Program-made: the position numbers and the translations under genes
The notes under the pieces: model-generated
The model's input: the letters and a program-made list of their open reading frames with translations, nothing else
Database searches by the model: none
Told to the model about the DNA's origin: nothing
DNA from: an uncultured Myxococcales bacterium
GTDB taxonomy: Bacteria; Myxococcota_A; UBA9042; DTJE01
Assembly: GCA_903936705.1 (NCBI GenBank)
Contig: CAIZWN010000031.1
Coordinates: 1 to 37,594 of the forward strand
Length of the DNA stretch: 37,594 bases
Direction of reading: 5' to 3'
Part shown: one piece after another, positions 18,140 to 37,594 of the stretch
Numbering within the stretch: the first letter of the stretch is position 1
Layout of the letters: each line of letters begins with the position of its first letter

Positions 18140-18481
18140 GGGCACCCTCCCGGTCTTCGGACTTCGGCCGCCCGACGATAGCCCATCAAGTCGCTGGTGG
18201 CGAGTCGGGTACGCCTTCTGAACTGTCCCCAGGGCACGATGGCTTCCCGAACTGGTCGTCGTACCTGCCTTGGGACACCCTGTCCTCAGCCTGCAATGCG
18301 GGTCAGCGTCACTTCGGCTGGGCATTGAAACAGCCAGGAAGGCCTTCGGACGCCTGGAACCCAGTTCTGGATGCCAAAAATGGGGGGTAAATGGGTGTTT
18401 TTGATCAAAACCGTCCCCCAGACCGTCCCCAAGGTGAAAAACCCCGGGTGGGGGAGCCGTCTAACTGCTTGTAATCGTTTG
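18140..18481. other. Spacer between nikR and tRNA-Gly carrying integrase-tail copy 2
   Basis: This is the upstream side of nikR and the right inner end of the island. Bases 18260-18430 are repeat copy 2. No gene is supported. A + strand reading that gives RETGVEPATYSLGS simply translates the tRNA-Gly sequence. Confidence 0.5.
18260..18430 (+). repeat. Integrase-tail / CCGTCCCC repeat, copy 2
   Basis: It aligns with 11756-11953 from CGTACCTGC through GGTCAGCGTCAC-TCG and ACAGCCAGGAAGGCC to AAAACCGTCCCCCAGACCGTCCCC. One frame keeps ETARKAF, matching ATARKAW in copy 3. The tail points at the intact tRNA-Gly 52 bases away, the classic layout of an integrase gene ending beside its own attachment site. 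Confidence 0.6.
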
Positions 18482-18524
18482 GAGCGGGAAACGGGAGTCG
18501 AACCCGCGACCTACAGCTTGGGAA
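18482..18524 (-). repeat. Right attachment-type repeat inside tRNA-Gly
   Basis: These 43 bases are the 3' half of the intact tRNA-Gly and match 10076-10118 without mismatch. In the integration model this half was supplied by the element and restored the tRNA gene. Confidence 0.85.
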
Positions 18525-18554
18525 GCTGTCACTCTACCACTGAGTTATTCCCGC
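18483..18554 (-). tRNA. tRNA-Gly(CCC)
   Basis: This 72-nt gene folds as a standard cloverleaf: acceptor GCGGGAA/TTCCCGC, D-stem ACTC/GAGT, anticodon stem ACAGC/GCTGT with loop TTCCCAA (anticodon CCC), and T-arm with TTCGACT. CCA is not encoded. Its 3' half is repeated at 10076-10118. Confidence 0.93.
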
Positions 18555-25298: not shown

Positions 25299-25393
25299 GG
25301 AAGCACCCGGGCCCTGGTGGGTTCCTCAGTCTTCAAAACTGGTGTGGGGCGCTGAGAGGCGTCCCGGGCGGGTTCGATTCCCGTGTGCTTCCG
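25299..25393 (+). tRNA. selC: tRNA-Sec(UCA), selenocysteine tRNA
   Basis: This 95-nt gene is followed by encoded CCA at 25394-25396. It has the long 8-bp acceptor GGAAGCAC/GTGCTTCC, a long variable arm (TGTGGGGCGCTGAGAGGCGTCCCGG region), a TTCGATT T-loop and anticodon TCA in the loop CTTCAAA. These features are specific to tRNA-Sec. It implies that the organism makes selenoproteins and encodes SelA, SelB and SelD elsewhere. Confidence 0.93.
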
Positions 25394-25520
25394 CCACGGC
25401 CAATAGTTACAGTAGGTTAGCCTCTGTTTGAGGGGGCGCTGCCAACGTCCTGCCAACATCGGGGCCTTGCACGCGCGACCGGTCCTCTTTGGTATAGATC
25501 GGCGAAGCGGGCGAGGGGAC

Positions 25521-28331: not shown

Positions 28332-29333
28332 CTACCGGCCGTCCACCGGCTTCACGACTTCCACGACATCACCAAACCCGCGAATCCAGGTCCAGACGTC
28401 GGACATCGACTGCGCGGTGAACGTCATACGCATCCGCCCGTCGGGCAGGTCCTCGAATTGCTGGGTCGGGTGCCAGCGCCGCTCGCGCACATACATCTTC
28501 AACCAGCGTTCGTCGGCGAAGATCAATTCAACCTTCCGCGGCCGCGCCCCTGGTTCGCGATAGATTCCGAACGACCCGTCCAGCAGTTCATCAGGCGCGT
28601 ATTCCGCGGGCGGCGGATACCGGAACGTCTCGCCCGTCCGCTCGACATCCTGCATTCTGTCGATGGCCAGGTAGTAGATCTTCTTGTTGCCCTTGAACCG
28701 CACGACCAGGTACAAGGCGCTGCGCCAGACCATCAGCGTCAGCGGTTCGATCAAGCGCGGACCCGAGGCGTCGCGGGCACCGTCGTAACTGGCCCGAATA
28801 CGCTTGCAGAACATCAGGCAATGCAGCACGGCCGCGATCTTCCGGTCCTGGCCCGTGTAGTCCTTTGGGGCATCGGGGGCCACCAGCACCTTGCGGTCCA
28901 GGTCCCGCAGCAACTGGCGAAAGACGAACGTGCGTTCATCAATCCGGTCCAGGAATTCCTGCCGGAAGGCACTCATGTCCTCGCCGATGCCGGTTGGCGC
29001 CAGAAAGGCGAAGGCCTGCCGTGCCATTTCGAGGGCCGCAACGCGTGCCAGGAAGTGCGGGTGGTCCTCGACGGGTTCCTCGCTGTCCCGCAAGCGAAGG
29101 TACCGAGCGTCGCCCTCGCGGGCCTCGACCACCAACGACCCCTTCGTGTCCACCAGGTAGTCGAAATGTTCCTGCAGCAGTGCCCGGTATTTGCGGTACG
29201 TGCGGTCCTTGATGCCCAGCTTGGCCTGGAGTTCATCAACGCGCCAGCCACGCGGATCGGTGATCAGTTTCAGCAGGATCTTGGCGAGGTTCAAGGCCAG
29301 CGGGGATTCGGGGCGGTCGGTCGTGGCATTCAT
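28332..29333 (-). CDS. WYL-domain transcriptional regulator
   Basis: This encodes 333 residues from ATG 29333. The N-terminal ~70 residues form an HTH-type domain (DELQAKLGIKDRTYRKYRALL). The middle is helical (residues ~100-170). A WYL domain is at ~170-250: RIRASYDGARDASGPRLIEPLTLMVWRSALYLVVRFKGNKKIYYLAIDRM, where the W/Y/L positions read as W-R-S-A-L-Y-L. The WCX-type C-terminal extension runs to EVVKPVDG. WYL proteins sense nucleic-acid or nucleotide ligands and often control phage-defence operons (BrxR, CapW). It lies downstream of, and on the same strand as, the AAA/SWIM/MoxR/VWA operon, with 112 bases and its own promoter between. Confidence 0.85.
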   Translation of the reverse strand: MNATTDRPESPLALNLAKILLKLITDPRGWRVDELQAKLGIKDRTYRKYRALLQEHFDYLVDTKGSLVVEAREGDARYLRLRDSEEPVEDHPHFLARVAALEMARQAFAFLAPTGIGEDMSAFRQEFLDRIDERTFVFRQLLRDLDRKVLVAPDAPKDYTGQDRKIAAVLHCLMFCKRIRASYDGARDASGPRLIEPLTLMVWRSALYLVVRFKGNKKIYYLAIDRMQDVERTGETFRYPPPAEYAPDELLDGSFGIYREPGARPRKVELIFADERWLKMYVRERRWHPTQQFEDLPDGRMRMTFTAQSMSDVWTWIRGFGDVVEVVKPVDGR

Positions 29334-29363
29334 CGGGGCCTCGTCAAACAGGAGGTTGATGAC

Positions 29364-29406
29364 GGTACGTATCGTGCCATATCCTGGGTCATCATGACAC
29401 TATCAA
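29364..29406 (-). promoter_or_regulatory. Promoter of the WYL gene with a candidate operator
   Basis: On the minus strand, TTGATA (29401-29406) and GATATG (29378-29383) are 17 bases apart. An inverted repeat, GGCACG-ATA-CGTACC (29364-29378), lies immediately downstream of the -10, where a repressor would block initiation. Autoregulation is inferred; one mismatch is present in the repeat. Confidence 0.4.
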
Positions 29407-29445
29407 AAAACCTACGGACTGATTCGCTACCCCCGACATCTCCCC

Positions 29446-30789
29446 TCAAATCGGCATCACGTCCACACGCAAGCCCCATGGAACCTTGTGCTGCCACGCG
29501 CGCAGCGGCACTACCCAGATGCAGGGCCAGTTCGGGGCGTGGTTGGGGAAGTACGATTCAAGGTCGGTCATGCCGATGAAGACGTCGGGTTCCAGGCCTT
29601 CGCGGGCCAGCCATTCGAAGACCGGCCGGTGGTCGGTTCCACCTCCGCCCTTTGCGTAGCCGGCCGCCAGCCACTTCAGGATGTCGGTTGTGCCGCGCAC
29701 GATTTCCTGGATCGCCGCGTCGTGGACTACCAGGATGGCTTCTTCGGCCACTTTCAACAGGGGGCGAATCTCGCGACCGACGGCGGCCAGGTCCGACAGT
29801 CGCATGCTGGCCGAGGTGTCCAAGGCGACAACCACGTCTCCTGGACGGTCGGATCGCAGCGAGGGCATGACGAGGTCGTAGGGCATCCATCGGCGGTTGG
29901 GCCTGGCTCGCGAAAAATCGTCCCGCTTGATGGAACGCCCCAGATGCTCGCGCAGCAGTTCCCACCAGGGCACCTCCTCGCTGCCCTTCGATTGCATCGC
30001 GCGCAGCACGTCGCCGGGTACGTCGCCAGCGTGGCCCAATGACGTCGCGTGATCGATGGCCCGGCGCACCCGTTCCTTCGCCAGATCCCCGAAATCGTCG
30101 CGAGCCTCATCGCCCGCGCCATCGCCGTCCGCGGGCGCCAGGGCCTGGGGCGGAACGTGCAGGTCCAATCGACCCACGTCCTCGGACAAACGTACCAGGC
30201 GCCCCATCCGCCGATCGGGTGCGGCAGGCTGAGGCAGCCCCAAACTGCCGTCTTCGCCGTATTCCAGGTCGAGGTCGGCATGAGGCCAGTCAGCCGGATG
30301 GTCCTCGCCCAGGGACTCGTAGATGGCTTCCGCAGTCATGCCGTCGTAATAGTCGTCCAGCGGCGGACGCAGGTCGCCCAGGCCAGGTATGTGGCGTCGC
30401 GGGATCTTGTACATGGGCCTTAGACACGCCCCCGGTTCCAGAATCGACGCCACCATCCGGTTGATCGCATGGTCGGTTGCCAGATTCCAGCGCCCCAGGT
30501 CGCGGTCGCGCCGGCGCTGCAGGCTTTCCAGCACCACGTGGCCGACTTCGTGGGCCAGCACGAAACCCAGTTCGCGGTATGGCAGGTATCGTGTGTAACG
30601 CGGGTTGTACCAGATGTGCCTGACGCCATCGGTGGCCGCCAGTGACGGAAGGTCGGGCGAAGGGCGGAACTGGGCATCCATCAGCAGATATCCCCAGAAA
30701 GGGTGGTGTTGCAACAGTTGCATCCGGACCGTCGCGATGCGCCGGTGCTCGCGCTGAAAGTCCTTCTGTTCATCACGAACGCGCTTCAT
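29446..30789 (-). CDS. VWA-domain protein with HExxH metallopeptidase-like domain (DUF2201-like)
   Basis: This encodes 447 residues. ATG 30789 follows GGGAGG and overlaps the MoxR stop by four bases. The N-terminal domain contains HEVGH at 80-84 (zinc metallopeptidase-type HExxH) preceded by GFVLA, and WNLATDHAIN, as in the putative metallopeptidase domain of DUF2201 proteins. The C-terminal VWA domain has a MIDAS motif DTSAS (324-328), GGGGTD (a downstream MIDAS Thr) and IGMTDLES. VWA proteins of this kind pair with MoxR ATPases, which remodel or load them with metal. A free peptidase activity is uncertain. It is the last gene of the four-gene operon. Confidence 0.88.
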   Translation of the reverse strand: MKRVRDEQKDFQREHRRIATVRMQLLQHHPFWGYLLMDAQFRPSPDLPSLAATDGVRHIWYNPRYTRYLPYRELGFVLAHEVGHVVLESLQRRRDRDLGRWNLATDHAINRMVASILEPGACLRPMYKIPRRHIPGLGDLRPPLDDYYDGMTAEAIYESLGEDHPADWPHADLDLEYGEDGSLGLPQPAAPDRRMGRLVRLSEDVGRLDLHVPPQALAPADGDGAGDEARDDFGDLAKERVRRAIDHATSLGHAGDVPGDVLRAMQSKGSEEVPWWELLREHLGRSIKRDDFSRARPNRRWMPYDLVMPSLRSDRPGDVVVALDTSASMRLSDLAAVGREIRPLLKVAEEAILVVHDAAIQEIVRGTTDILKWLAAGYAKGGGGTDHRPVFEWLAREGLEPDVFIGMTDLESYFPNHAPNWPCIWVVPLRAWQHKVPWGLRVDVMPI

Positions 30790-31937
30790 GCGGCCTCCCT
30801 GCTTTCCAGGCCAACGTGCACCGCGCAGATCGCCGCCGCCAGTTCGCGGTACTCGGGCAACGCCCGCAGGCGAACCAGCAGATTCCCCCGCCCCTTCAGG
30901 CGCCGCAGGAACATGAATGTGAACTCGATGTCCAGTCCGGGCGACCGCAAAAAGCGCACTACGTTCGGCAGGAAGGCGTCGTCGATTTCGCCATGTCGAG
31001 CGATCCACGACGACACCGTATGCACACAGGCCTGTGCAAAAGACGGATCCATCGAGTCCTGGGCCGTGAAATCCATCGCGTCCCCCCGCTGGACAATGCC
31101 CTGCGGGTCAACCCGCTCGTACAGCATCAGGAAGGAAAAAAAGCGCTCGGCAGCCCTGGTCCCCACACACGCTGCCACCACCCGCCGCCGGTCCTCGGGC
31201 CGTGCCGTCGCCAGCGCCCGGCTGGTCATTTCCCACGACCGCGGAGTCGGGAATGGCCCGTCCCCAGGCGCCTCGTACAACGCCGATTCCCCCTCCCGTG
31301 CGATGAAGGCCACCACAGCCTCGTGCAACTGGGCCTTGTTCGCCCAACGCACCCACGCGTCGGCATCGGCCCGCAAGGACAGGTGAGCAAAGCGGTTCGA
31401 CAATGCCGACGACATCGGCGACACGATGGCGTGGTCCTCCTCCAGGTTGCCCGCGGCCATCACCACTGTGCCCGGGTGGAAGGCGAACGGCCCCACGCGC
31501 CGCTCCAGCACGATCTGGTATGCCGCGGCCTGGTGCAGCTTGGTCACGGCGGCGTTGATTTCGTCCAGGAACACGAAGGCAGGAGCCGCGCACGCCGTCT
31601 GGACCCAGTCGGGCGGCAACAAATCAAGCACGCGCCGTTCGCGGTCGGGGAAGTACACGCCGCCAATCTCGGCAGGGTCCCGCTGGGCCAAACGGATGTC
31701 CACCAGGGGCAGGCCCATGGCCGCCGCGATTTCACGAGCCAGCGTGGACTTGCCCACGCCTGGGTGCCCGCGGACCAGCACCGACAGGCCAGCGGCCAGC
31801 AGGGACTCGGCCAGCGGCCTGGCTTCGTCGTACGCATAGCCCTCGGCCAGCACGGGCAGGCCCGTGGCCACAGCACGAAGGGCCGCGGCCTTGGGCACGG
31901 GTTTCGGCTTTACAGCAACACGTCTAGCAACTGGCAT
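30786..31937 (-). CDS. MoxR-family AAA+ ATPase
   Basis: This encodes 383 residues. ATG 31937 has AGGAGG 6-11 bases upstream; earlier in-frame starts lack it. Walker A is GHPGVGKST (57-65), Walker B FVFLDEI (121-127), then AAGNLEEDHAIVSPMSSALSNRFAHL, with the sensor 1 Asn and Arg finger region typical of MoxR/RavA ATPases. A helical lid follows (SWEMTSRALATARPEDRRR) and a C-terminal helical part. MoxR ATPases act with VWA partners as chaperone or metal-loading machines. The stop overlaps the VWA gene start, and the start lies inside the 3' end of the SWIM gene (28 bases), so expression is coupled. Confidence 0.9.
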   Translation of the reverse strand: MPVARRVAVKPKPVPKAAALRAVATGLPVLAEGYAYDEARPLAESLLAAGLSVLVRGHPGVGKSTLAREIAAAMGLPLVDIRLAQRDPAEIGGVYFPDRERRVLDLLPPDWVQTACAAPAFVFLDEINAAVTKLHQAAAYQIVLERRVGPFAFHPGTVVMAAGNLEEDHAIVSPMSSALSNRFAHLSLRADADAWVRWANKAQLHEAVVAFIAREGESALYEAPGDGPFPTPRSWEMTSRALATARPEDRRRVVAACVGTRAAERFFSFLMLYERVDPQGIVQRGDAMDFTAQDSMDPSFAQACVHTVSSWIARHGEIDDAFLPNVVRFLRSPGLDIEFTFMFLRRLKGRGNLLVRLRALPEYRELAAAICAVHVGLESREAA

Positions 31938-32236
31938 CGCAAATCCTCCTCCCGGACCAGCACCGCCACGATGTGCGGACACAGGTCGGTGCCTTTGAAC
32001 TGGTTATTCACATACTGCTGCATGCACGTGCAGGTCGGCCTCTTCACCCATGCAGGGTCGGCGGTGACGGTTTCCATCTTGCCGCCCCGGTCGGTCACGC
32101 AGAACTTCTTCACCCCGTCGGCAGCCGGTTTCTGGGCCTCGATGTGCCCGCGCCGCAATACCTCGCGGGCGGCCCGCAGCGCCTTGGTTTCGCCCGGCCG
32201 AATGTCCACCTTCGCGTCGTTTCCCGCTGCAGCCAT
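31910..32236 (-). CDS. SWIM-type zinc-finger protein
   Basis: This encodes 108 residues. ATG 32236 is chosen over GTG 32239 for its spacing from GGAGG; both overlap the stop of the upstream AAA gene. The core is TCTCMQQYVNNQFKGTDLCPHIVAVL, which fits CxCx(n)CxH, the SWIM zinc-finger pattern, here at about residues 69-94. Upstream is a basic helix-strand segment (EVLRRGHIEAQK, KKFCVTDRGGK). SWIM domains bind DNA or protein and occur in transposases, in kinases and next to MoxR/VWA genes. It may be the targeting subunit of the operon. This cannot be shown from sequence. Confidence 0.8.
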   Translation of the reverse strand: MAAAGNDAKVDIRPGETKALRAAREVLRRGHIEAQKPAADGVKKFCVTDRGGKMETVTADPAWVKRPTCTCMQQYVNNQFKGTDLCPHIVAVLVREEDLRCQLLDVLL

Positions 32237-34479
32237 CACGCCACCTCCGACGCGAATCCCACGCGTCCCTTGCCGTTGCCGCCCATGGCGACAATCTCTT
32301 CTTCTGCCGCAATTTCCAGCGCCTGCATCGATACCACCTCGTTGCGACTTGCAACCCGGAAGGCCGCCTTGAACACCGCGTTGCGGATGCGCCCGCCCGA
32401 CAGCGCATAGCGGCGACCCAGACGCACGACGTCCACGGTCCCGTCCATCGGCACCGTGTCAGGCAGCAGCCCGCGCCAGATGGCTGCCCGTCCAGCGGCA
32501 TCGGGCATCGGGAAGGCCAGCCGGTAGGCGATTCGCCGCGACAACGCCCGGTCCAGCACCACTTCCCGGTTTGTTGCCAGCAGCACCAGCCCGTCATGAC
32601 GCTCGACCAGGCGCAGCAGCACGTTGACCGCCCGGTCGTCGTGATGCGCGCTGCCGCCAGGGGTTTCGCCGCCCCGTTCGCCCAGTAACGAATCACATTC
32701 GTCCAGGAACAGAACCGCCGAATGGGCCTTCGCGTCCCGGAACATCTGCGCCAGGTTGCGCTCGGTCTCGCCCACCCACTTGGATACCAGCGACGGGATG
32801 GACGCCTCCAGCAGCGGCCGCCCCAGCTCGCCCGCAACCGCCTGCGCGCACAGCGTTTTGCCGGTTCCCGGCTCGCCCACGAACAGGGCAGCCAGGCCCT
32901 TGCCGCCCCCGACGTGCCCGGCGATTCGCCAGCGCTCCAGCACCGTGCGCCGCCCCCTCGCCGCCGCCACCAGTTCTTCCACCTGGGCCTTCATCACCGG
33001 CGGCAGCACCACGTCGGCCAGCAGCGCCTTGGGATTGGTCAGTTCCAGGTGTTCGTCCGACGCCCGGTGCCCCTGGTTGCGCGCGGCGTTTTCCAGGTGC
33101 GCCATCGTGATCCACAACTTGTCGCCGCCGGTCGCAACCGCCTCGGCAACCGCCTCCAGCACGGCGTTCTTGATGTACCCCCCTGCCAGTTCATGCCTGT
33201 CGGCCAGGGCGTCCAGGTCCACATCCGCGGCCAGCGGAGCACCAGCCGGCAGATGCCGTCGCCACAACGCCCGCCTTGCCTCGCGGTCCGGCGCCGGAAA
33301 GCGCACCTTCACCAGAATTCGCCGGTCCAAAGCCTCGTCCAGCGCCGCGGGCAGGTTGGTGGCAAGGATCGCCACGCCCTCGAAACGCTCCAGTTCAGTC
33401 AGCAGGACCGTCATCAGCGCGTTGCCGTAACGCCGGTCCGCGAACAGGCCCTCGCACTCGTCGAAAAACAACACCGCGTTGCGCAGGCGCGCCTCCCGGA
33501 ACAATGCCGGCAGGAATCGCCCGGACTCGCGATTTTCCAGGAAGGTCGGGATGTCCACGTTCAGCACGCGTCGGCCCAGTTCCTTTGCCACGGCGTGGGC
33601 CGTCAGAGTCTTGCCCGTGCCTGGCGCCCCGTGGAACAGCATCACCAAACCGCGCCCGTAGGTGATGACCTCGTCGAAACCCCACTCGCGCCGACACTCC
33701 AGATACCGGTCGTGGTGCTGCAGAACCGCCAGGATGCGCCGCTTGTCCTCGGGTTCCATGACTACCGCGTCAAAGCCCGCCAGTGGCGCCTCGATGCGCG
33801 AAAATCCCAGGAATGCGTCGTCCAGTCGCGGGTCGCCGACAACGTGATTGAAAGCCTGCGACGTGATGCGCAGCGCAGCGCCCAGCAGGTCGTCGGGCCA
33901 CAGCATGCCGCCCGTCAGGTCCACCGTAACCAGGTCGTTGCGCACCAGCGGCGCCACGCACCCGAAAGTCGCCCGGCGCGGCACCGTTTCCGCGAAGGAC
34001 ATTCCCGCGAACGTGAACGCCACGTCGGGGGTCAGATTGGTCCCATAGCCGCGGTCGGCCAGGTCCGCGAACAGTTGGCCAAAGCGGTTTGAAAAACACG
34101 CCGCGACGGCCAGCAGCATGACCGTGCGCTCGAACGCGTCCAGCCCAGCCTCGTTTGCCAGCCGGTCGAAGGCCGTGGGCCCGTGCGCCGCCCGCCACTT
34201 TGCCAGGCGCAGGTCGATTGACGACCGCAGATCCTGTTCCTTTTTTCGCAACCGCCGCAGGGTTGCTGCGCCATTGTCGGTTCGTTCGTCATCGTCCTGT
34301 TCGCCCCCGCGCCGCCGCCCGCCACGGCGTGCCTCGGTCGCCGCTTCGCGAACGCGATCCGCCGTGATGCGCCGCAGCCGCGTTTCCACCCAACGCAGTT
34401 CCTCGTCCAGCCACTCCAGTTCCGTCGCGTAGGGTCCCTTCAATGAATCCATCGAACCCGAAATCCGTGCCCTGGGCAT
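32236..34479 (-). CDS. Tandem AAA+ ATPase (two ATPase domains) with unknown N-terminal domain
   Basis: This encodes 747 residues. ATG 34479 follows GAGGAGG. The N-terminal ~240 residues are helical with a basic, low-complexity stretch (RRGGRRRGGEQDDDERTDNG). AAA domain 1 has Walker A GAPGTGKT (284-291), Walker B VLFFDE (336-341) and DRR (385-387). Domain 2 has GEPGTGKT (535-542), a pore-type SKWVGETERN (566-575) and VLFLDECDS (589-597). AAA proteins of this Cdc48-like design form hexamers that unfold proteins or remodel complexes. It leads the operon and is followed by SWIM, MoxR and VWA genes in 1-28-base overlaps. The role is unknown. Confidence 0.88.
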   Translation of the reverse strand: MPRARISGSMDSLKGPYATELEWLDEELRWVETRLRRITADRVREAATEARRGGRRRGGEQDDDERTDNGAATLRRLRKKEQDLRSSIDLRLAKWRAAHGPTAFDRLANEAGLDAFERTVMLLAVAACFSNRFGQLFADLADRGYGTNLTPDVAFTFAGMSFAETVPRRATFGCVAPLVRNDLVTVDLTGGMLWPDDLLGAALRITSQAFNHVVGDPRLDDAFLGFSRIEAPLAGFDAVVMEPEDKRRILAVLQHHDRYLECRREWGFDEVITYGRGLVMLFHGAPGTGKTLTAHAVAKELGRRVLNVDIPTFLENRESGRFLPALFREARLRNAVLFFDECEGLFADRRYGNALMTVLLTELERFEGVAILATNLPAALDEALDRRILVKVRFPAPDREARRALWRRHLPAGAPLAADVDLDALADRHELAGGYIKNAVLEAVAEAVATGGDKLWITMAHLENAARNQGHRASDEHLELTNPKALLADVVLPPVMKAQVEELVAAARGRRTVLERWRIAGHVGGGKGLAALFVGEPGTGKTLCAQAVAGELGRPLLEASIPSLVSKWVGETERNLAQMFRDAKAHSAVLFLDECDSLLGERGGETPGGSAHHDDRAVNVLLRLVERHDGLVLLATNREVVLDRALSRRIAYRLAFPMPDAAGRAAIWRGLLPDTVPMDGTVDVVRLGRRYALSGGRIRNAVFKAAFRVASRNEVVSMQALEIAAEEEIVAMGGNGKGRVGFASEVA

Positions 34480-34780
34480 CTGCCACCTCCTCGCCTTTAC
34501 AACCCGTGAAGAGCGGGGACTAAACCCTGAAACCGCGACATCGCGATCAACTCGCCCTTCCCTGTAACTACCCGCGAGAATTCGGAATTAAGCCCACTGG
34601 AACGGCTTTAGTCACGGCGCGGCACGTTGCGTGCCGGTTTGTTGCAGATTCCATATTTTCCGGGGTAGGTTCGCGATCGGCAGGGTGCCGCAGCACGTTC
34701 AGCTCGATGGGCACGTTCCGGTCACTGGCCAACCGTAAGTACTGCGGGAAGTCATGCAGGTTCGTCGCCGTCCAAAGTCA
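34480..34780. other. Spacer upstream of the AAA operon with a decayed coding stretch
   Basis: This contains the leader and promoter of the AAA operon; no strong -35/-10 pair is certain. It also contains the reading described at 34591-34784. I see nothing else. Confidence 0.35.
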
Positions 34781-34784
34781 TCAC
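34591..34784 (-). pseudogene. Possible remnant of a gene overlapping the XRE stop
   Basis: An ATG in GTGATGACT overlaps the XRE-gene stop (the usual place for a toxin in an antitoxin-first pair) and reads MTLDGDEPA before a stop. Allowing a one-base shift, the strand stays open and protein-like: HDFPQYLRLASDRNVPIELNVL, then RHPADREPTPENM. I do not recognise it. It could be a frameshifted or truncated partner of the XRE regulator. Confidence 0.35.
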
Positions 34785-35299
34785 AGGTACTCGGCAAGGG
34801 CCGCACGGGCAATCCGGTACAGTTTGATGACCCGCCCCTCCGGTGCCGGCGTCGTCAGCTTCCACGCCAACGAACCGCGGGAGAAACGCGCCGCGAAAAA
34901 GCCTGGGAAGTGCAGTCGCAGCGCCAGCAAAAGGGCCTGGATCGCCTCTGCTTCCCGGCTGTCCACCGCCACCGTGCCCCGCGACAAGCCAGCCAGCGCG
35001 GGCGCCAGTTCCCGGATCAACCGGTCCCCGCTTTTCGGCACTTTCCTGGAGGCGCTGGCCGCCGACATCGGCAACCCCAGTTCGCACAACGCGTCCCAGT
35101 CCGGTTCCACGGCCTGACAGCCATGGGTCAGAGCCAGTTCACGCATGACCTTCGTCAGCGTCGAAAACGCCGGATTCGCACATCCCGCCTCGATGTTCTG
35201 AATGCTAGCCAGACTGACGCCGGATCGACGCGCCACTTCGGCCTGAGTGAATCCAAGTTCAAGGCGCTGCCGACCGATCGCCGGTCCCAAAGTCTTCAT
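34781..35299 (-). CDS. XRE-family HTH regulator
   Basis: This encodes 172 residues from ATG 35299. Residues ~5-60 form an HTH_3/XRE domain (IGRQRLELGFTQAEVARRSGVSLASIQNIEAGCANPAFSTLTKVMREL). The remainder is helical (PKSGDRLIRELAPALAG, KLYRIARAALAEYL), similar to antitoxins or to regulators of defence loci. It diverges from the ATPase/nuclease pair at 35436, sharing a 136-base spacer. A strong promoter lies only 7 bases before its ATG, so its mRNA is probably leaderless. It likely represses itself and perhaps the divergent genes. Confidence 0.85.
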   Translation of the reverse strand: MKTLGPAIGRQRLELGFTQAEVARRSGVSLASIQNIEAGCANPAFSTLTKVMRELALTHGCQAVEPDWDALCELGLPMSAASASRKVPKSGDRLIRELAPALAGLSRGTVAVDSREAEAIQALLLALRLHFPGFFAARFSRGSLAWKLTTPAPEGRVIKLYRIARAALAEYL

Positions 35300-35306
35300 A
35301 CCTAGA

Positions 35307-35335
35307 ATATTATGGGTCGCGACGCGGGTTGGCAA
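35307..35335 (-). promoter_or_regulatory. Promoter of the XRE gene, apparently leaderless
   Basis: The -35 TTGCCA (35330-35335) and -10 TAATAT (35307-35312) on the minus strand have 17-base spacing. ATG 35299 begins 7 bases after the -10, so transcription and translation would start at nearly the same base. Confidence 0.6.
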
Positions 35336-35380
35336 GCGGTCGCATTCGACTGCCAGCCCTGGCCGGAAGTCGGCGTCTCG

Positions 35381-35435: not shown

Positions 35436-36476
35436 ATGATCAAGTCGTTGACAGTTAAGGATTTCACGGTCTTCAGCGAGGCCCGGTTCGACCTGGGTGC
35501 CCTGAACATAATTCACGGCGAGAACGGCGCTGGTAAGACACACCTTCTGAAACTTGCGTATTCGGTCTGGTCCACCTTGAGGCCCGAGACATCGGCCGGA
35601 GCCCCGGAACGGCCGACGAAGAAGTGGCTGGAACCCGAACTGGGGCGGAAGCTGACCGCTGTCTTCCGACCCGACAAACTCGGGCGATTGGCCCGCAGGA
35701 TGCCGGGGACGGCGAAGGCGTCCGTGAACGTGCGCTTCGACGACAAGTCGCTGAACACGAAGTTCGAGTTCCACACGCGCAGTTCTTCGGATGTGACGGT
35801 CAAGAGTCTGCCCGAAGCGTGGGCCGAACTGGCACCCGTCTACCTCCCGACGCGCGAAGCCCTGTCGGTTTTCCCCGGTTTCGTATCACTGTACGAGGGG
35901 ACTCGACTCCCGTTCGACGAAACCTGGCGCGACCTTTGCCAGCAACTGGACGCAAGGCTACTCCAGGGGCCGCGGCCAGCGGCGGTGCAGCACATGCTTG
36001 ATCCACTTAGCCTGGCGCTCGGGGGGGAACTCCGCCTCGAAAAGGATCGCTTCTATCTTTACCTCCCTAGCGGTCGCATGGAGATCGACCTGGTGGCTGA
36101 GGGGGTGCGTAAGCTGGCCATGCTGGCATGGTTGGTCGCCACACAGAAGTTGCAAAGCAAGGGCGCGCTGTTCTGGGATGAGCCGGAAGCCAACCTCAAC
36201 CCAAAGTTGGTGAAACTGGTTGCGCCGGTACTTATTGGCTTGGCGCGCAGCGGTGTCCAGGTCTTTGCCGCTACCCACAGCCTTTTCCTGATGCGCGAAC
36301 TGCACGTCCTGCTGCAGGGGGCCGATAAGGGAGTGAAGACCCGATTCATCGGCCTCCATTTGAACGATGGTGAGGTCACGGTCGATCAGGGGGACACTCT
36401 GGACGACTCCGGCGAAATTTCGACGCTGGACGAAACACTGGAGCAGTCGGAACGATACCTAGCCCTGGAGGGCTAG
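35436..36476 (+). CDS. ABC-type (RecF/OLD-like) ATPase, candidate defence protein
   Basis: This encodes 346 residues from ATG 35436. Walker A is GENGAGKT (28-35), with the opening MIKSLTVKDFTVFSEARFDLG typical of RecF/OLD-type ATPases. A signature-like AEGVRKLAMLAWL lies at 221-233, Walker B FWDEPEANLNP at 246-256, and ATHS carries the switch His (281). Only ~110 residues separate the lobes, so no long coiled coil is present, and no TOPRIM domain follows. Such ATPases pair with nucleases in phage-defence systems (Septu PtuA, Gabija GajA, PARIS AriA). Here the partner is the nuclease-like gene two bases downstream. No member of a named system is confidently recognised. Confidence 0.85.
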   Translation: MIKSLTVKDFTVFSEARFDLGALNIIHGENGAGKTHLLKLAYSVWSTLRPETSAGAPERPTKKWLEPELGRKLTAVFRPDKLGRLARRMPGTAKASVNVRFDDKSLNTKFEFHTRSSSDVTVKSLPEAWAELAPVYLPTREALSVFPGFVSLYEGTRLPFDETWRDLCQQLDARLLQGPRPAAVQHMLDPLSLALGGELRLEKDRFYLYLPSGRMEIDLVAEGVRKLAMLAWLVATQKLQSKGALFWDEPEANLNPKLVKLVAPVLIGLARSGVQVFAATHSLFLMRELHVLLQGADKGVKTRFIGLHLNDGEVTVDQGDTLDDSGEISTLDETLEQSERYLALEG

Positions 36477-36478
36477 CC

Positions 36479-37009
36479 ATGAGGCTTCGTGAGGGGAACG
36501 TCGAGTGGACCTTCCCGGATGGCTGGACCGCCTCGAAGTACGACGAATGGACATTCTACCGCAAGCAGTTCCAGCGAACCGCTGACCGTGGCGCCAAGGC
36601 TGCCGACTTCGTTGCGATCACTCCCGAGGGCGACACCCTCTGGTTGATTGAGGCGAAAGACTACACCTTTGAACCCCGAGGCGATTCAAAGGAGTCGCTG
36701 GGCATCGAGGTCGCACGAAAGGCTCGGGATACGCTGGCTGGGCTGTTCGCCGCTGCCGTCAATGGCGGGGGGGACGAGCAGGTAGTTGCCGGCAGGGCCT
36801 TGGGCGCGCGCCGGATCCGAGTCGTGCTGCACCTTGAGCAGCCCACCACGAAGACCCGGATCTACCCAACAATCCTGGACCGGGCTGACGTTTTGCAAAA
36901 GCTGAAACAGGTGCTCAAGGCCATCGACCCGCACCCGATGGTGATGGACACGACCCACGCGGGAGGGGTGCCCTGGGCCGTCGCCTGGAAGCCCGACATG
37001 CCTTCCTGA
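36479..37009 (+). CDS. Small PD-(D/E)XK-like nuclease, partner of the ATPase
   Basis: This encodes 176 residues. ATG 36479 lies two bases after the ATPase stop. Residues 41-62 read AADFVAITPEGDTLWLIEAKDY: Asp43, 14 residues, Glu58-Ala-Lys60, which is the D-(E)xK active site of the PD-(D/E)XK nuclease fold, with a hydrophobic strand between. RIRVVLHLEQP follows as a core strand. No DNA-binding domain is visible. As the second gene of a two-gene unit it is expected to be the effector. Nuclease activity is inferred from the motif. Confidence 0.65.
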   Translation: MRLREGNVEWTFPDGWTASKYDEWTFYRKQFQRTADRGAKAADFVAITPEGDTLWLIEAKDYTFEPRGDSKESLGIEVARKARDTLAGLFAAAVNGGGDEQVVAGRALGARRIRVVLHLEQPTTKTRIYPTILDRADVLQKLKQVLKAIDPHPMVMDTTHAGGVPWAVAWKPDMPS

Positions 37010-37145
37010 TCCATCGGCGCATCTGGTGTCGGTTTGACGCTCCCGATCATCACGAGGTTCGATAGCCGTCGCCCCCCTTTGCCCTGGCCGGCCCCATCTG
37101 CTAACTTGCAAAAGCCAAGGGATGGCCATCGTTGACGGAGGCTCC

Positions 37146-37594
37146 ATGGCCACAATGCACCCGAGCTCGTTGCCCGATGAGGTCCGGGACGACCCGCGTC
37201 GATCGGCCGAGATCCGCACCTTCCACGCGCTGGATACGCTGGACGACGACTTTCACGTCTTTTATGGCGTGACCTGGCAATCGCGCAGCGGCGGGCGCGC
37301 CCGGGATGGCGAGGCGGATTTCCTTGTGGCCCACCCCGACCTGGGCCTGCTGGTGCTGGAGGTGAAGGGCGGCGGCATAGCCCGCGGTCCCCAAGGCTGG
37401 ACCAGCACGGACCGCACCGGTACCGCTTACGGCATTCGAGACCCAGGCCAGCAGGCTCGGGAAAACCACTACCTGCTGCTGGACAAGATCCACGAGTTCC
37501 CGGGCTGGAGTCACCGCCACGTTCGCGCCGGTCATGGCGTCGTGTTTCCCGATTGCTGCATCGACGGGGCTTTGGCACTGGACCTGCCACGGGA
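37146..37594 (+). CDS. NERD-domain protein, 3'-truncated by the window edge
   Basis: ATG 37146 follows GGAGG, and the frame is open to the end (149 codons). It carries a NERD nuclease-related domain: EIRTFHALDTLDDDFHVFYGVTW, GEADFLVAHPDLGLLVLEVKGG (Asp-Glu-x-Lys active-site type) and a later LLLDKIHEFPGW. NERD domains often precede helicase or kinase domains in defence or DNA-processing proteins. The downstream architecture lies outside the window. Together with the ATPase/nuclease pair it suggests a continuing accessory island. Confidence 0.8.
   Translation, partial: MATMHPSSLPDEVRDDPRRSAEIRTFHALDTLDDDFHVFYGVTWQSRSGGRARDGEADFLVAHPDLGLLVLEVKGGGIARGPQGWTSTDRTGTAYGIRDPGQQARENHYLLLDKIHEFPGWSHRHVRAGHGVVFPDCCIDGALALDLPR

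Follow-up and report, generated by a model that had tools for sequence, protein, structure and literature searches.

What is the task of an operon that sets two AAA+ ATPases beside a SWIM-type zinc finger protein and a von Willebrand factor A (VWA) protein with a metallopeptidase-like HExxH motif, and which signal switches it on? The question is raised by the window analysed here, a stretch of 37,594 nucleotides that makes up an entire contig (CAIZWN010000031.1) from the 4.85-Mb genome of an uncultured Myxococcales bacterium. Four overlapping minus-strand genes stand in the order AAA2, SWIM, MoxR, VWA-HExxH, and a gene for a WYL regulator then follows. Based on sequence comparisons, we propose an inducible AAA+/zinc-metallopeptidase machine as the product of the operon; it would work alongside the DNA-end nucleases RecBCD/AddAB and SbcCD and act on DNA-bound proteins, a reading whose chances we put at about even. 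A first-pass annotation of the sequence had described all junctions as overlapping. This holds for the four operon genes, whose overlaps measure 1 nt (AAA2/SWIM), 28 nt (SWIM/MoxR, assuming a MoxR start at 31937) and 4 nt (MoxR/VWA), but not for the WYL gene, which lies beyond a 112-bp gap 3' of the VWA gene and has a palindromic site of its own.

The WYL regulator, its palindrome and DNA-end enzymes

The WYL protein (29333-28332, minus strand; 333 aa) consists of an N-terminal helix-turn-helix (HTH)-like region followed by WYL and WCX domains, both assigned by Pfam above cut-off (PF13280 and PF25583). Its nearest relatives of solved structure are DriD (1e-10, the alignment spanning residues 147-329) and PafC (2e-4), while BrxR and CapW were left unmatched even at E values up to 10. 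For three divergent WYL proteins, those of other loci included, the top solved relatives are DriD or PafC/PafBC. DriD and PafBC are activated by single-stranded DNA (ssDNA) (PMC12340889; PMC11804915). In sequence, the window WYL resembles DriD and PafC, which are regulators of the DNA-damage response, more than it does BrxR and CapW, which regulate phage defence. The resemblance to DriD and PafBC extends to the WYL-WCX architecture, the best solved matches and a link with DNA-end processing; the similarity is distant, however, and the window WYL's operator differs.

Where might this regulator act? Two operator-like palindromes of the form GGYACG-N3-CGTRCC occur in the window, GGTACG-TAT-CGTGCC at 29364-29378, 31 bp 5' of the WYL start, and GGCACG-TTG-CGTGCC at 34621-34635, 142 bp 5' of the AAA2 start; a scan of the window with one mismatch allowed returned only these two promoter sites. 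The genome as a whole holds six perfect sites, two of them inside coding genes (one in a gene that we take to be mutS) and four intergenic, preceding WYL1, AAA2-1, AAA2-2 and WYL2. AAA2-2 belongs to a second copy of the operon, where the site (L160:3348-3362) keeps the 142-bp spacing. WYL2 is a paralogue with 91% identity to the window WYL; it is convergent with sbcC, and sbcD and a dnaE-type gene lie next to them. In the same genome (C77:28000-45509, locus L255) the dnaE-type gene and sbcD-sbcC lie between two WYL genes that share 49% and 91% identity with the window WYL. In genome G065 a WYL homologue (48% identity) with a site 24 bp 5' of it heads a WYL-recC-recB-recD operon, and in G110 sites are found 5' of a WYL homologue (59%) and of recC, a further one falling within what appears to us to be an imuB-dnaE2 cassette. 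One-mismatch sites stand 5' of two WYL genes in G060, and also between WYL and sbcD there. Across nine genomes the background amounts to about 0.7 site per Mb, and chance estimates for the palindrome are indicative only, as they assume independent promoters and a motif fixed beforehand. The identity of recC was established with a hidden Markov model and by tblastn against annotated recC; sbcC, sbcD, recD, dnaE and mutS were named by reading the sequences and by their mutual similarity, without a family search. The sites themselves are established by comparison, and we infer that the WYL protein binds and acts at them.

A similar arrangement is seen with another motif. In G153 and G045 the SWIM-MoxR-VWA trio is accompanied by a different WYL protein, about 27-30% identical to the window WYL, and the palindrome GCGACA-N5-TGTCGC is found in the space that separates the divergent WYL and SWIM genes; two sites also lie 5' of a second tandem-AAA gene, and others 5' of two small genes. 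Of all the sites in the genome, the operon contig holds five out of seven in G153 and seven out of twelve in G045. These sites suggest that control of the operon and its neighbours from a WYL-adjacent palindrome recurs, here with a site that looks unrelated and a distantly similar WYL protein. The WYL proteins adjoining trio loci share only 25-30% identity with the window WYL, so that WYL is a recurring role rather than a single gene, and we rejected it as an orthologous member of the set. As a separate observation, a WYL homologue in G036 (31%; L234) lies 5' of an apparent Cas4-Cas1 fusion, with a MoxR-like gene on the other side.

DNA-end enzymes are also encoded around the trio itself. Genes for recBCD, recBC or a RecB/AddA-type helicase-nuclease lie nearby, that is within about 6-9 kb, in L098, L099, L102, L106 and L111 (about four lineages), and RecB/AddA-type or recBCD genes lie near solo AAA2 genes in L173, L179 and L184; the surroundings of the other MoxR-VWA loci and the random regions yielded no such gene. 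The first-pass annotation had taken the WYL gene alone as a sign of phage defence, a step that now looks too quick. DNA-end processing, which serves repair and defence alike, is better supported, because the WYL operator and the close WYL relatives go with recBCD and sbcCD.

Four proteins with conserved motifs

AAA2 (34479-32236, minus strand; 747 aa) has a Cdc48-like architecture, with a PF22977 winged helix and two PF00004 AAA domains (3e-52), and both sets of Walker A and Walker B motifs are intact in an alignment of its homologues. Its solved relatives are Cdc48/p97. Against the CDC48 family model TIGR01243 it scores 148.3 bits, under the cut-off of 802.65 bits, and it differs from that family in its winged-helix N-domain. 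The IetA models give 2e-50 and 174.7 bits, far under the curated cut-off of 510; the IetAS system is alike in its logic of an AAA ATPase with a protease, but its protease class differs and the operon contains no subtilase. IetAS, CDC48 and TRIP13 were dropped as family names for AAA2, as the similarity is that of AAA domains in general. The SWIM-type protein (32236-31910, minus strand; 108 aa), a putative targeting or DNA-binding adaptor, found no match in a Pfam search and was identified through its motif, CxC-x14-CxH, whose zinc ligands are invariant in 18 homologues. Its AlphaFold model has a predicted local distance difference test (pLDDT) score of 83.

The MoxR-family AAA+ ATPase (31937-30786, minus strand; 383 aa, with an alternative start at about 31898) carries a Walker A motif, GHPGVGKS, and a Walker B motif, FLDEIN, that are conserved across homologues. 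Its partner, the VWA-HExxH protein (30789-29446, minus strand; 447 aa), is a predicted DUF2201_N zinc-metallopeptidase domain fused to a VWA domain, with Pfam matches to PF13203 (DUF2201_N, 'putative metallopeptidase'; 4e-26) and PF09967 (DUF2201; 2e-18). It displays the metallopeptidase motif HEVGH ... WNLATD and an intact metal-ion-dependent adhesion site (MIDAS) made up of DTSAS, GGGTD and TDLE. Across 41 homologues, viral ones included, HExxH, the downstream Asp (WNxAxD) and the MIDAS residues DxSxS/T/D are invariant or nearly so. In profile comparisons the HExxH segment matches the small solved protein MJ1213 (2.7e-4), the metallopeptidase 'selecase' of the minigluzincin group, and the VWA domain matches Ro60; a Foldseek search of the PDB with the AlphaFold model (pLDDT 82) returned generic VWA domains only, Ro60 at the top. 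With domains assigned and catalytic and metal-binding motifs conserved, the gene set described in the first-pass annotation is real.

Might the MoxR-VWA pair simply be a chaperone? Pairs of known function mostly remodel partner enzymes (PMC9976466, PMC13036017), and this core is the most widespread part of the set. The operon proteins could accordingly mature one particular enzyme or load it with metal, along the lines of NorQD, CbbQO or RavA-ViaA, with HExxH in a structural role or as a processing peptidase. We regard this as improbable: the operon includes no conserved client enzyme, HExxH and its third ligand show little or no variation even among viral relatives, and the recurrent links to recBCD, sbcCD and WYL fit a metabolic client poorly.

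The viral relatives raise another possibility, namely that the locus is a domesticated virion-assembly protease, captured together with extra genes from the MoxR/metallopeptidase-VWA pair of jumbo or N4-like phages. Homologues occur in 389 phage records and 20 viral contigs, the pair has strong viral structural matches, and a MoxR with a metallopeptidase-vWA protein has been described in jumbo phages (group 2.2) and assigned a role in virion assembly (Iyer et al. 2021, PMC7824862). The likeness lies in a MoxR next to a VWA protein whose N-terminal part is a zincin-like metallopeptidase. However, the viral relatives are merely 22-37% identical, the phage loci are all without SWIM and AAA2 and also lack WYL, and the window locus is bacterial, with no phage structural or virion genes recognised beside it or near the other bacterial loci. 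Such an origin is very improbable in our judgement.

How does the set compare with other systems built from similar parts? The vWA-MoxR-VMAP ternary conflict systems (Kaur et al. 2020, PMC7159879) also have MoxR and VWA proteins in an accessory, conflict-rich setting, but no VMAP or effector domain was recognised in the window's five genes, and SWIM is unmentioned in PMC7159879. Escherichia coli yehLMPQ (MoxR, YehM, VWA, SWIM) offers the same list of domain names. It was rejected as the same system: YehL gives E=0.03, YehQ an hhalign probability of 0.7%, and YehP a match to the VWA domain only, without the metallopeptidase. No description of the five-part set with its operator was found in the literature searched or in PADLOC, which has no model covering the SWIM or the VWA protein, and a literature search for DUF2201 yielded nothing relevant. 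The MoxR/metallopeptidase-VWA pair is already known; the five-part set with its operator appears to be undescribed. The first-pass annotation had singled out the genes as a candidate for an undescribed system.

Distribution, second copy and defence genes nearby

DUF2201_N is present in 68 of the 284 genomes of the phylum. A close VWA homologue occurs in 16 of 52 genomes of the class, and a search of the whole class with the VWA protein added essentially no further genomes; the set is therefore accessory. SWIM, MoxR and VWA consistently form one gene run, a patchy, co-conserved trio. The SWIM clade is found mainly in Myxococcota metagenome-assembled genomes (MAGs), with further members labelled Armatimonadota, Acidobacteriota, Verrucomicrobia and Planctomycetota. 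AAA2 adjoins about half of the trio loci, standing first in the window, L098 and L117 and last in L100, L102, L106, L108, L114 and L118. AAA2 orthologues are present in 16 of 22 trio genomes, compared with 23 of the remaining 262 (Fisher p = 3e-11, without correction for phylogeny); with linked cases left out, the figure is 5/11 (p = 0.002), although at least one of these five, G147, may be linked across a contig break. The set is thus neither ubiquitous nor lacking in co-conservation, the two ways in which the first-pass annotation had thought that its proposal might fail.

The genome of the window contains a second copy of the operon, split over contigs C14 and C59 and 86-89% identical in DNA. 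This copy has an additional 119-aa gene between AAA2 and SWIM (L160:607-966, minus strand), absent from the window copy and without a match in a Pfam search. A NERD gene adjoins both copies, cut by the contig end in the window (37122-37594) and apparently frameshifted, by comparison, in copy 2 (L160:3936-4736). On the operon's far side the window carries a tRNA-SeC (anticodon TCA; 25299-25396, plus strand) and a tRNA-Gly (18480-18554, minus strand); selC is a frequent site of island integration.

Is the operon then a defence system? Divergent from it, between AAA2 and NERD, lies an HEC-02A/B candidate defence pair (35436-37009, plus strand; PADLOC 3e-115 and 4e-49), which is absent from the corresponding place in copy 2. 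Other trio loci have neighbours matching HEC-02, DpdE, ZorD/DrmD-type helicases, SoFic and PDC-S02. At a threshold of 1e-20 and with Ser/Thr kinases excluded, at least 8 of 105 trio-locus neighbours match PADLOC models compared with none of 97 proteins from random regions, whose matches are to Ser/Thr-kinase models only (Fisher p about 0.005, the count of eight being a lower bound from the family list). The surroundings of solo AAA2 genes had been considered as a neutral control and were replaced by random regions, as BREX-type and other matches occur there. The first-pass annotation had proposed a check for enrichment in defence islands, and defence genes are indeed frequent near these loci. 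A distant variant on a Sphaerotilus plasmid (NZ_CP035707.1, L149) runs through WYL, tandem AAA, Sir2, a MavL-like macrodomain, a dual-specificity phosphatase, a gene of unknown function, MoxR and DUF2201, and possibly includes NAD/ADP-ribose effectors. These observations, together with the adjoining NERD gene, the patchy distribution and the second copy, would suit a dedicated anti-phage or anti-plasmid system with no job in repair, in which the complex, held back by WYL until infection, turns against phage proteins or kills the cell that is infected. We consider such a system possible, if on the unlikely side. The regulator family and operator are common to the operon and recBCD, a close WYL paralogue sits beside sbcCD, the closest WYL relatives are DNA-damage activators, and the operon has neither a toxin nor a nuclease effector; moreover, the neighbour count is a lower bound from a small sample.

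Further genes were seen around these loci. In the window an XRE-type HTH gene (34650-35340, minus strand) has a downstream partner that looks decayed, and a two-gene version (HTH of 172 aa plus a 173-aa partner) is found at L256:4150-5186, with 87% DNA identity over the HTH part. REase-ARP (PF22558) nuclease genes (L102:12866-13765, L093:2099-4543) and Fic proteins (L114:5874-6791) recur beside trio loci. So does a small family of about 165-184 aa (L102:4121-4675, L106:6036-6557, L003:2349-2876, L114:1198-1695), a possible extra component; a palindromic site lies upstream of its genes in L102 and L106, and the member in L003 had no match in a Pfam search.

A possible route from DNA damage to protein removal

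How could such a machine operate? In the model that we put forward, the WYL protein would, like DriD and PafC, sense ssDNA produced by damage or by an element that replicates or invades, and would then act at the palindromes in its own promoter and in that of AAA2-SWIM-MoxR-VWA. The SWIM protein and the VWA MIDAS domain may recruit the DNA-bound target. MoxR, probably as a hexamer, would unfold or extract the target protein, joined by the Cdc48-like AAA2 where this is present, and the HExxH domain, whose motifs are intact, would clip it, leaving the DNA clear for nucleases. In the defence version the identical action would be directed at phage DNA-bound proteins. The benefit may lie in repair, in phage defence or in both.

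Several lines of background bear on the model. SbcCD reportedly processes protein-bound DNA ends. Crosslink repair in E. coli requires RecBCD (PMC7779557), and Wss1 is a minigluzincin-like protease that has Cdc48 as its partner (PMC4559962). Taken together with the kinship of the WYL protein to DriD and PafC, these points speak for a machine that strips proteins off DNA ends. In its most specific form, the system would clear DNA-protein crosslinks (or phage DNA-bound proteins) by combining a MoxR-VWA metallopeptidase with a SWIM adaptor and an unfoldase of Cdc48-like type. Its induction would run through a WYL regulon that senses ssDNA and has RecBCD and SbcCD under its control as well, in an SOS-independent DNA-end response; so complete a picture is speculative and rather unlikely to be right in every part. 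The parallel with Wss1/SPRTN and Cdc48/p97 is one of working only, an HExxH metallopeptidase with a tandem-AAA Cdc48-type unfoldase; the window set has no SUMO or ubiquitin parts and adds a MoxR-VWA module, and no orthology to that pair is claimed.

A number of observations weigh against the proposal of an inducible machine acting at DNA ends. The palindrome was first spotted by eye, which leaves the promoters of other genomes as the independent tests, and the WYL promoter of G206 lacks the site. DNA binding by the SWIM protein is an assumption, and a Foldseek search with its model found no match in the PDB. Defence genes cluster near these loci, so that the adjacency of recBCD could partly reflect shared island hotspots. 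The gene calls come from a home-made caller, and most loci are MAG contigs with cut ends. AAA2 is missing from some trio loci and mostly solo elsewhere in the phylum, and in a maximum-likelihood tree the operon-linked AAA2 proteins do not form one clade, starred branches forcing at least two changes per arrangement. This last point weakens the case for one obligate complex that includes AAA2 and makes the first-pass annotation's suggestion of a single complex of all four products uncertain.

What would the operon mean for the biology of these bacteria if the proposed model is correct? It would represent a bacterial zinc protease, powered by ATP, that shares its regulator family and control site with RecBCD, with a paralogue of the regulator adjoining SbcCD, and a counterpart, in logic, of the Wss1/SPRTN-Cdc48 route. 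It would also provide a function for the widespread and uncharacterised MoxR/DUF2201 pair, which many phages carry too.

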